Source of the DNA: Pedobacter sp. SYSU D00535
GTDB taxonomy: Bacteria > Bacteroidota > Bacteroidia > Sphingobacteriales > Sphingobacteriaceae
NCBI RefSeq assembly: GCF_017355855.1
Contig: NZ_JAFEWD010000007.1
Coordinates: 1-64,000 of the forward strand
DNA: 64,000 nucleotides
Direction of reading: 5' to 3'
The position numbers were made by a program, and so were the translations under genes. Below are positions 23,140 through 56,797 of the stretch, one piece after another (position 1 is the stretch's first letter; every line of letters starts with the position of its first letter). Below the pieces are notes generated by a model. That model made no database searches. It was not told the DNA's origin and saw nothing but the letters and a program-made list of their open reading frames with translations.

Positions 23140-24885
23140 ATGCATAGAACACATACCTGCGGTGAATTAAATATCAATGATTTAGGAAAAGAGGTAACTC
23201 TTGCCGGATGGGTACAGAAAGCCAGGGATCTGGGTGGAATGACTTTTATTGACATCCGCGACCGTTATGGCATCACTCAGTTGTTGTTTAATATGGATGA
23301 GAACGCTGATTTATGTGAGCAGGCTCGCCAGGTATCCCGTGAGTTTGTAATAAAAGTTACAGGCAAAGTTGTAGAGAGAACAAACAAGAACCCTAAGATA
23401 CCGACAGGGGATGTTGAAATAAAGGTTGCCGCTCTTGAAATCTTAAATGCAGCGAAGCTACCGCCTTTTCTGATCGAGGATGAGACAGATGGCGGTGAAG
23501 ATCTGCGTATGAAATACCGCTACCTCGATCTACGCAGAAATCCGGTTAGAAATAATTTAGTCTTGCGTCACAAGATGGCGCAGGAAATCCGGAAGTATCT
23601 TGATGCCCAAAACTTCATAGAAGTAGAGACTCCTGTTCTTATAAAATCTACTCCGGAAGGAGCCAGAGACTTTGTGGTTCCTAGCAGAATGAATCCAGGC
23701 GAGTTTTACGCTCTTCCTCAATCGCCCCAAACCTTCAAGCAATTGCTGATGGTATCCGGCTTTGACCGTTATTTTCAAATTGTGAAGTGTTTCAGGGATG
23801 AGGATCTGAGAGCTGACCGCCAGCCGGAATTCACACAGATAGACTGTGAGATGTCCTTCATTGAGCAGGAAGATATTCTGAATTTGTTTGAGGGGATGAC
23901 GCGTCACCTATTCAGCACGGTGAAAGGGATACAACTTGAAGAGTTTCCAAGAATGGCTTATAACGACGCTATGCGTTTGTACGGTTCGGATAAGCCTGAT
24001 ACCCGCTTCGGGATGCAGTTTACTGAGCTGAACGATCTGGTGAAAGGCAAAGGTTTCCCGGTGTTTGACGGAGCCGAGTTGGTCGTGGGAATCAATGCAC
24101 CAGGTTGTGCTGCTTATACCAGGAAGCAAGTGGACGAATTGACCGACTTCATTAAGCGTCCTCAAATCGGAGCTACTGGCCTGGTATATGCCCGTTATAA
24201 CCCGGATGGATCGCTAAAATCGTCTGTTGACAAATTCTACTCAGAAGACGATCTGAAAAAATGGGCAGAAGCTTTCAAAGCGGAGCCAGGAGACCTGATG
24301 CTTATTATGGCCGGTCCTACGGAAAAGGTAAGAAAACAGTTAAATGAGCTCCGTCTTGAAATGGGAAGCCGTTTAGGATTAAAAGATAAAAACAAATTCG
24401 CTCCCCTCTGGGTAGTTGATTTCCCTTTGTTGGAGTGGGATGAGGATTCTCAAAGATATCACGCAATGCACCATCCGTTTACTTCGCCTAAACCGGAGGA
24501 TATTGCACTCCTGGATTCAAAACCAGGGGAGGTTAGGGCAAATGCCTACGATTTGGTTATTAATGGAACTGAGATCGGTGGAGGTTCGATTCGTATTCAC
24601 GATCGGTCGTTGCAAGCCTTAATGTTCAAGCACCTCGGCTTTAGCGAGGAGGAAGCTCAAAAGCAGTTTGGATTTTTGATGGACGCTTTTGAATATGGTG
24701 CTCCTCCACATGGCGGTATTGCATTTGGCTTTGATCGTCTGGTGTCTATTTTTGCAGGCCTGGATTCTATCAGAGACGTTATTGCCTTTCCTAAGAATAA
24801 TTCTGGTAGAGATGTGATGATTGATTCTCCATCAAGTATTTCTGATGAACAATTGAAGGAATTGAACATCAAAACCACAGTATAG
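23140..24885 (+). CDS. aspS: Aspartate-tRNA ligase
   Basis: This 581-residue class IIb synthetase charges tRNA-Asp. The N-terminal OB-fold anticodon-binding domain covers about 1-110 ([26 protein letters not shown]). The catalytic core has RYLDLRRN (motif 1 region), [18 protein letters not shown] (motif 2) near residue 220, a bacterial GAD insertion domain at about 300-410, and [15 protein letters not shown] (motif 3) near residue 530. Its length is normal for the bacterial type. It is a single transcription unit with promoter and terminator. Confidence 0.97.
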
Positions 24886-55939: not shown

Positions 55940-55997
55940 AAGGCTAAATATAGCTCTGAACCTAGTAACAACTTAGAAAAATTGATGGGATATTTAG

Positions 55998-56028
55998 AAA
56001 AAAATAAAGCTCTCGATGGGCGAGAGCT
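55998..56028 (-). terminator. Terminator of the tRNA-like gene
   Basis: Perfect 8-bp arms agctctcg (56008-56015) and cgagagct (56021-56028) are followed on the minus strand by TTTATTTTTTT. This ends a transcript running through 56178-56068. Confidence 0.85.
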
Positions 56029-56067
56029 CAAACTAACCAATTATAAACCTAAATTAAACGAAAGGAG

Positions 56068-56177
56068 CTGTAGGGGAAGGAATCGAACCTTCAAGGAGTG
56101 GTTGAACCGTTGCTGGCTTTCCCAGATTCTCCGCCACCGAGACAAGGAGGTGTGTCTGCCTGTTTCACCACCCTACA
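56068..56177 (-). tRNA. Unusual tRNA-like RNA, long variable arm, apparent GUC anticodon
   Basis: The minus strand folds as a cloverleaf. The acceptor is TGTAGGG/CCCTACA (56177-56171 with 56075-56069), extendable by one pair. The D stem is GTG/CAC with an 11-nt Leu-like loop (AAACAGGCAGA, 56165-56155). The anticodon stem is CCTCC/GGTGG with a T-T mismatch and loop TTGTCTC, anticodon GTC (56143-56141). The variable region is 41 nt (56133-56093), with GGAG/CTCC and CTGG/CCAG pairings inside. The T arm is GAAGG-TTCGATT-CCTTC and the discriminator is G. It is ~110 nt, far longer than a normal tRNA. No CCA is encoded. Position 37 is T, which is unusual. The isotype is uncertain. Confidence 0.6.
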
Positions 56178-56211
56178 GTGTTAAGCAAAGCTTTTTGTTA
56201 CTTGCTTGATA

Positions 56212-56244
56212 CAAATTTAAAGCAAATTGAATATTCCTTGCAAA
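56212..56244 (-). promoter_or_regulatory. Promoter of the tRNA-like gene
   Basis: On the minus strand TTTG (56244-56241) lies 21 bp before TAAATTTG (56219-56212), both exact Bacteroidota consensus elements. Transcription would start about 27 nt upstream of the RNA. Confidence 0.55.
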
Positions 56245-56320
56245 TATTTTAACATTTTATTTTAATTTTTATAAAGTTTTTATTTACTTCGTATATAAAT
56301 TAGAATCCTTCAAATATCCC

Positions 56321-56797
56321 ATGGAAAAAAAAGGCGTAAATTCAGAAATTGATAATCTGGATATCCAGATACTTTCCTTACTCATGGAAGATGCTACCAT
56401 TCCATACACAGAGATCGCTAAAAGGCTGATCGTGTCTGGCGGAACTATTCACGTAAGGATGAAAAAAATGCAGGACCTTGGAATTATCAAAGGTTCTAAC
56501 TTACTGGTTGATGCTCAAAAGATTGGCTATGATGTCTGTGCCTTTCTTGGTATCTTTTTAGAGAAAGGTTCCATTTATAAAGATGCGGTAGAAAAGCTGA
56601 GGAAAGTGAAGGAGATCGTGGAGTTGCACTACTGTACCGGCGCCTATAGTATGTTTGCAAAGATCATTTGCAGGGATACCAATCATTTGAGGGAAGTGTT
56701 GAATGATAGCATTCAATCGGTAGAAGGAATTCAGCGCACGGAAACGTTTATCTCTCTGGAGGAAAGTATCAAACGGCAGATCAGCCTGAACAGCTAA
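56321..56797 (+). CDS. Lrp/AsnC-family regulator
   Basis: This 158-residue regulator has an N-terminal helix-turn-helix (NLDIQILSLLMEDATIPYTE, then AKRLIVSGGTIHVRMKKM) and a C-terminal RAM ligand-binding domain ending FISLEES. Such proteins bind amino acids or related compounds. It sits divergently from the tRNA-like RNA and ends at a bidirectional terminator with pdhB. The target and ligand are unknown. Confidence 0.9.
   Translation: MEKKGVNSEIDNLDIQILSLLMEDATIPYTEIAKRLIVSGGTIHVRMKKMQDLGIIKGSNLLVDAQKIGYDVCAFLGIFLEKGSIYKDAVEKLRKVKEIVELHYCTGAYSMFAKIICRDTNHLREVLNDSIQSVEGIQRTETFISLEESIKRQISLNS

Follow-up and report, generated by a model that had tools for sequence, protein, structure and literature searches.

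The first 64,000 nucleotides of contig NZ_JAFEWD010000007.1 from Pedobacter sp. SYSU D00535, hereafter the window, contain a 110-nt tRNA-like RNA gene on the minus strand. It belongs to an undescribed RNA family that is absent from Rfam; no account of the family was found in the open-access PMC literature on tRNA-like RNA, GatCAB, and AsnC. Its invariant nucleotides, its neighbouring regulator, and its distribution among genomes suggest that the RNA is probably a dedicated non-decoding carrier, which aspartyl-tRNA synthetase (AspRS) would load with aspartate and on which GatCAB would make asparagine, under the control of AsnC. The system is most likely a variant of tRNA-dependent asparagine synthesis with a carrier RNA of its own. 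Beyond the window, we lean towards the view that much of Bacteroidota forms its asparagine on a non-decoding tRNA built for this purpose, whose gene would replace asnA/asnB under AsnC feedback and which would unite AspRS and GatCAB identity in one molecule. We know of no earlier RNA family dedicated to amino-acid biosynthesis, and this one would be the first if the proposal is true.

Fold, conservation, and invariant nucleotides

Copies of the RNA were found by DNA search in 38 of 100 relatives, and Sphingobacteriaceae-centred sequences yielded 182 distinct copies. The genera with named matches, all of them Sphingobacteriaceae, were Pedobacter, Mucilaginibacter, Sphingobacterium, Arcticibacter, Daejeonella, Hufsiella, Pelobium, and Desertivirga. 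Genomes with the RNA carry 1-7 copies, and that of the window carries six, five of which form a tandem array on contig 14. When 395 genomes of the class were searched with a covariance model, members of 108-176 nt turned up in about 20 families, and a phylum sample added three genomes with the RNA, from one family outside the class; a diverged member in genome G283 measures 196 nt. Since normal tRNA-Leu genes of 81-87 nt also score with the R1 model, at less than about 66 bits, only longer, higher-scoring matches were counted as members. The class-wide alignment comprises 104 distinct members.

The cloverleaf pairs of these copies covary. For 17 diverse members aligned by sequence alone, changes on both sides were observed in 9 of the 27 pairs, compared with 2.9 in shuffled alignments and 0-2 in slid controls. 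The alignment of all 104 members, which was fitted to the structure, showed such changes in 18 of the 27 pairs and 327 cells, against 12.7 pairs and 83 cells in shuffles and at most 6 pairs and 28 cells in slid controls. The acceptor, D, anticodon, and T stems all covary, the D loop contains GG, the T loop reads TTCRA, and the acceptor/T-stem domain is 7/5, where an allo-tRNA would need 8/4 or 9/3. At the base of the variable arm is a stem that covaries. The arm also has a second, short stem, an interior loop in which GAAA or GATAAA faces CTAA or GCTAA, and an apical part that varies, being a small hairpin of GNRA-like type in most copies from Sphingobacteriaceae. In the long forms outside Sphingobacteriaceae, the arm often carries GGGUUGACCAC. 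Our results indicate that the whole cloverleaf is under conservation and that the family is real and not a pseudogene.

The window element has the acceptor stem TGTAGGG/CCCTACA, a Leu-type D arm, an anticodon stem CCTCC/GGTGG with a U.U mismatch, the anticodon loop TTGTCTC (GUC, T37), a 41-nt variable region, a normal T arm, and the discriminator G73. A sequence-only reading had described the D arm, variable region, mismatch, T37, and GUC exactly so, and had taken the element for an unusual, apparently living tRNA-like gene, which is borne out. The homologues with compensatory changes that it proposed to look for in Sphingobacteriales are numerous. Two of its suggestions did not stand, however: a decaying duplicate is ruled out by the 182 distinct covarying copies, and a likeness to allo-tRNAs does not agree with the ordinary 7+5 bp acceptor and T stems. 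Another, a decoy or regulatory RNA, is retained as an unlikely reading. The element was not called by ARAGORN, nor by Rfam at its gathering cut-offs (RF00005 included), and its distant relatives were likewise unrecognised by both. A permissive Rfam search of positions 55940-56320 gave chance matches only, the ARAGORN tmRNA search did not recognise the RNA, and single-sequence folding was uninformative (z -0.8, with a minimum-free-energy structure that is not a cloverleaf).

The triplet at the anticodon position is GUC in 100 of the 104 distinct members, CUC in 2, and UUC in 2, so that U35 and C36 are invariant (104/104), and C38 is present in 102. U1-A72 and G2-C71 occur in all 103 readable members, and G73 in 102 of the 103 with a readable 3' end, the exception (L093) having its 3' half deleted. 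The D loop is of the GGCAGA type in nearly all members, and U20a and G1-C72 are absent. G73, G34, U35, C36, and C38 are strong bacterial Asp identity determinants, and U1-A72 makes Asp-tRNAAsn a substrate for amidation, whereas G1-C72 and U20a are antideterminants that protect Asp-tRNAAsp (PMC9976931). The family carries the strong AspRS determinants G34, U35, C36, C38, and G73 and the minor one G2-C71. Among the 22 normal tRNAs of the same genome, C38 is found in tRNA-Asp only and U1 in tRNA-Asn and tRNA-Gln only. The RNA joins the signatures of aspartylation and amidation on one body that should not decode, because U33 is often lost (position 33 is not U in 18/104) and position 37 is almost never a purine (U in 90/104), while all 22 normal tRNAs have both U33 and a purine at 37.

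The family thus departs from decoding tRNAs in U33 and purine 37, and from tRNA-Leu in having G73 and GUC in place of A73 and a Leu anticodon. It shares G73 and a long arm with tRNA-Ser, but has a Leu-type D arm and U1-A72 instead of the Ser D arm and G1-C72. Charging by leucyl-tRNA synthetase or seryl-tRNA synthetase was judged less likely, since G73 speaks against the former and U1-A72 with the D arm against the latter. Two other candidates were rejected. The likeness of CACCTCCTT, in the anticodon arm, to the 3' end of the 16S rRNA suggested an anti-Shine-Dalgarno role, but outside Sphingobacteriaceae the arm is mostly CCCTC/GGGGG or similar. The UGU of the loop hinted at a colicin-E5/queuosine decoy, which the variation at position 33 speaks against.

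Genomic partners and layout of the locus

The co-occurrence of the RNA with enzymes of asparagine and glutamine metabolism was compared in 80 genomes, 40 with and 40 without the RNA, with GatCAB presence judged by a search for GatB only. Asparaginyl-tRNA synthetase (AsnRS) was found in all 42 genomes tested for it and glutaminyl-tRNA synthetase (GlnRS) in 60 of the 80. Among the genomes with GlnRS, GatB was present in 31 of the 32 that have the RNA versus 1 of the 28 that lack it (Fisher 9e-15, kinship ignored). As AsnRS and GlnRS are both present, GatCAB has no evident need in these genomes for making Asn- or Gln-tRNA. GatB was found in 39 of the 40 genomes with the RNA overall, and in 20/20 genomes without GlnRS, as expected from its role in Gln-tRNA formation. 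E. coli-type AsnB, defined by at least 69% identity to the query, was found in 0/40 genomes with the RNA versus 18/40 without it, again ignoring kinship. This switch among RNA, GatB, and AsnB was seen in several families and within one genus, in which one genome (G022) has AsnB and lacks the RNA and GatB, and two others (G042 and G055) have the RNA and GatB and lack AsnB.

A more sensitive model search confirmed the absence of the RNA in 38 of 40 genomes; the other two were G028, already known as a positive, and G283, with its diverged member. The exceptional genome with GatB and without the RNA (G071, contig 19:17848-20151) carries GatB in one 1120-aa frame together with an AspRS/AsnRS-like domain, possibly a natural GatB-synthetase fusion. 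AsnA was found in two genomes without the RNA (G017 and G038) and in one with it (G243), whose RNA (L280) has the Glu anticodon CUC and not GUC.

A gene of the Lrp/AsnC family adjoins the RNA in 51 of the 80 loci searched and is divergent from it in all 51, at a distance of 113-304 bases between the RNA and the Lrp/AsnC match. The loci without such a neighbour are for the most part additional copies or tandem arrays at other sites, or belong to families in which the RNA has changed place. Outside the class, the three genomes with the RNA have the identical divergent arrangement. In the window, the regulator scored 177 bits with the AsnC model NF008384 versus 54 with Lrp and at most 74 with other models, and its best solved relative is E. 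coli AsnC (2cg4; 122 bits versus 51 for Lrp). Distant orthologues rank AsnC over Lrp in the same way. As the model score is below the equivalog cut-off of 227, the predicted regulator is properly called AsnC-type. In one genome (G216, L308) the anticodon loop of the RNA is degenerate and the adjoining AsnC gene contains stop codons, a case of joint decay. E. coli AsnC acts locally, activating the asparagine synthetase gene asnA, and asparagine damps the activation (PMC8707732). No transferase gene recurs beside the RNA in the neighbourhoods of the loci examined.

The features of the window are as follows.

56068-56177, minus strand: tRNA-like RNA, nucleotides 1-73 (110 nt; cloverleaf with covariation)
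56067, minus strand: C74, genome-encoded, following the tRNA-like RNA
56141-56143, minus strand: triplet GUC at the anticodon position (34-36), in the loop UUGUCUC with U37 and C38
56093-56133, minus strand: variable region of 41 nt with covarying stems (GGAG/CTCC stem, TGG/CCA, GAAA/CTAA-type interior loop, GNRA-like hairpin)
56212-56244, minus strand: Bacteroidota-type promoter of the tRNA-like RNA, TTTGCAA-N18-TAAATTTG, the sole pattern match in the window
56030-56066, minus strand: 3' trailer (...AGGTTTATAATTGGTTAGTTT), conserved downstream of copies in many genera
55998-56029, minus strand: intrinsic terminator, stem-loop GAGCTCTC-GCCCATC-GAGAGCTT followed by a T run
56321-56797, plus strand: AsnC-type regulator of the Lrp/AsnC family, divergent from the tRNA-like RNA
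23140-24885, plus strand: AspRS (aspS) of the same genome, the proposed charging enzyme, with discriminating-type residues in the anticodon domain

The promoter pattern TTTGCAA-N15..24-TAnnTTTG has a single match in the 64 kb of the window, immediately 5' of the RNA, and the intrinsic terminator lies downstream, at 56029-56007; a promoter and terminator of its own had already been read from the letters, correctly. The promoter TTTGCAA-N18-TAAATTTG is kept upstream of most family copies. Most copies have their own Bacteroidota-type promoter and terminator, the window's terminator being replaced by others in relatives, and GCCCATC is a frequent terminator loop among the copies. The trailer AGGTTTATAATTGGTTAGTTT between the RNA and the terminator is near-identical across many genera even though the mature RNA would lose it. 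The encoded C74 is as in the genome's normal tRNAs. Elsewhere the genome has full Leu and Ser tRNA sets and a normal tRNA-Asp(GUC), whose presence the sequence-only reading had wished to see checked.

A proposed carrier for asparagine synthesis and its alternatives

We propose that an ordinary discriminating AspRS would read G34-U35-C36, C38, G73, and G2-C71 and load the RNA with aspartate. GatCAB would then amidate the RNA-bound aspartate to asparagine, which is proposed because the RNA has U1-A72 and lacks the tRNA-Asp antideterminants G1-C72 and U20a, and free asparagine would be released from the RNA. Decoding would be blocked by the loss of U33, the non-purine at 37, the U.U mismatch of the Sphingobacteriaceae members, and the large structured variable arm, and this block would avert mistranslation of GAC/GAU, with asparagine in place of aspartate. 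The divergent AsnC-type regulator would adjust transcription of the RNA to the asparagine supply, as E. coli AsnC does for asnA. The AspRS of the window has the RDLG motif and Lys of the discriminating E. coli enzyme and not the RDHG of the Pseudomonas Asp/Asn enzyme, residues that we take to matter for Asp/Asn discrimination. An AspRS predicted to be of the discriminating type fits the need for a carrier with an Asp anticodon rather than tRNA-Asn.

Asparagine is synthesised on tRNA-Asn in Thermus, Deinococcus, and Bdellovibrio, organisms that also have AsnRS and GlnRS, and Bacteroidetes are among the genera with GatCAB, AsnRS, and GlnRS but without an asparagine synthetase (PMC4206432). The route proposed here would similarly place aspartate on a U1-A72 RNA for amidation by GatCAB. 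However, the known route uses a decoding tRNA-Asn and a non-discriminating (relaxed) AspRS, whereas with a non-decoding RNA distinct from tRNA-Asn and bearing an Asp anticodon, the ordinary AspRS would suffice. In E. coli, asnC and asnA are divergently arranged; here too an AsnC-type regulator stands beside a gene proposed to form asparagine, but that gene is an RNA and not an asparagine synthetase. The RNA resembles Leu/Ser-type (class II) tRNAs in its Leu-like D arm, long variable arm, and 7/5 acceptor/T stems, and differs from them in G73, which is not the Leu determinant A73, in GUC, in a branched variable arm of 30-100 nt, and in its non-decoding loop. Allo-tRNAs and tRNA-Sec likewise have a long variable arm and an anticodon unusual for the body; unlike them, the RNA has an ordinary 7+5 bp acceptor/T domain and a Leu-type D arm, and it is not a UCA suppressor. 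With tmRNA and Y-RNA-like tRNA mimics it would share a non-decoding role, but it has a complete cloverleaf with an anticodon arm and no tag ORF. If the proposal is true, a transfer RNA, by origin an adaptor of translation, now acts as a metabolic cofactor; this would explain the retention of GatCAB in many Bacteroidota despite AsnRS and GlnRS, and would link tRNA identity rules, indirect aminoacylation, and classical AsnC feedback in a three-part system of RNA, AspRS, and GatCAB.

Several points weigh against a carrier for asparagine synthesis. Pair 1-72 is U-A, whereas E. coli AspRS reportedly uses G1-C72 for positioning the 3' end (PMC9976931). The Asp determinant G10 is present in the window copy, but the family as a whole has A, G, or U at this position, and a class II synthetase may be hindered by the long variable arm. 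In one genome with the RNA, G028, GatB was not found, this being a 180-contig draft whose congeners have GatB. Genomes with the RNA hold AsnB-like genes of 590-650 aa, some of whose products may make free asparagine, and ten genomes with GlnRS and without the RNA also lack E. coli-type AsnB. The co-occurrence counts treat genomes as independent and are not corrected for phylogeny.

An RNA that senses or regulates, whose charging or amidation state would report aspartate, glutamine, or asparagine status to AsnC, or which would titrate AspRS/GatCAB, with no biosynthetic route, agrees with the AsnC linkage, the conserved 3' trailer, and the conserved structured variable arm with its GATAAA/GCTAA-type loop and its long forms with GGGUUGACCAC. 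We consider such a role unlikely, as on its own it accounts neither for the retention of GatCAB, among genomes with GlnRS, only where the RNA is present, nor for the mutual exclusion of the RNA and E. coli-type AsnB. Less probable still is that Asn- or Asp-RNA donates its amino acid away from the ribosome, in the modification of lipids, cell wall, or peptides, comparable to tRNA-Gly in staphylococcal wall synthesis. A non-decoding body with an intact acceptor and elbow, and the GatCAB link, would suit a donor; no transferase gene recurs beside the RNA, however, and a donor predicts neither the exclusion by AsnB nor the AsnC neighbour. We give very little credence to a decoding tRNA of rare identity, such as an Asp or Leu/Ser hybrid reading GAC: the GUC anticodon, the intact acceptor and T arms, and the encoded C74 would agree with it, but positions 33 and 37 contrast with those of the 22/22 normal tRNAs, and a normal tRNA-Asp is already in the genome. 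A decaying duplicate or pseudogene, to which the missing ARAGORN and Rfam calls might point, is refuted for practical purposes because of the class-wide conservation and covariation, besides the family's own promoters and terminators, and the real case of decay (L308) looks different, with the anticodon loop lost while the AsnC gene gains stop codons.

Variant members and other odd tRNAs

Pedobacter genomes (L243, L244, L144, and other loci) often have a second, adjoining copy with a much longer variable arm containing GGGTTGACCAC, a form common in other families. Members of family f49 (L280, L285, and L379) carry CUC as anticodon, and a 77-nt member with a short arm carries AUC; in this family the RNA may be in the course of losing its identity or acquiring another.

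Other unusual tRNA sequences were seen as well. A second odd tRNA of genome G000, L241 23-116 (G000:C12:193022-193114), is 94 nt long and has an expanded anticodon/variable region and, according to ARAGORN, a 4-base anticodon GTAA. Beside the normal tRNA-Cys at L052 (G000:C12) lies a second, weak one (672-744; 40 bits), whose acceptor stem is mismatched. L051 (G000:C13, about 1245-2030) contains three tandem 360-nt units beside two tRNA-Val genes, each unit comprising a partial tRNA (28.5 bits) and a short frame that resembles a GIY-YIG nuclease.
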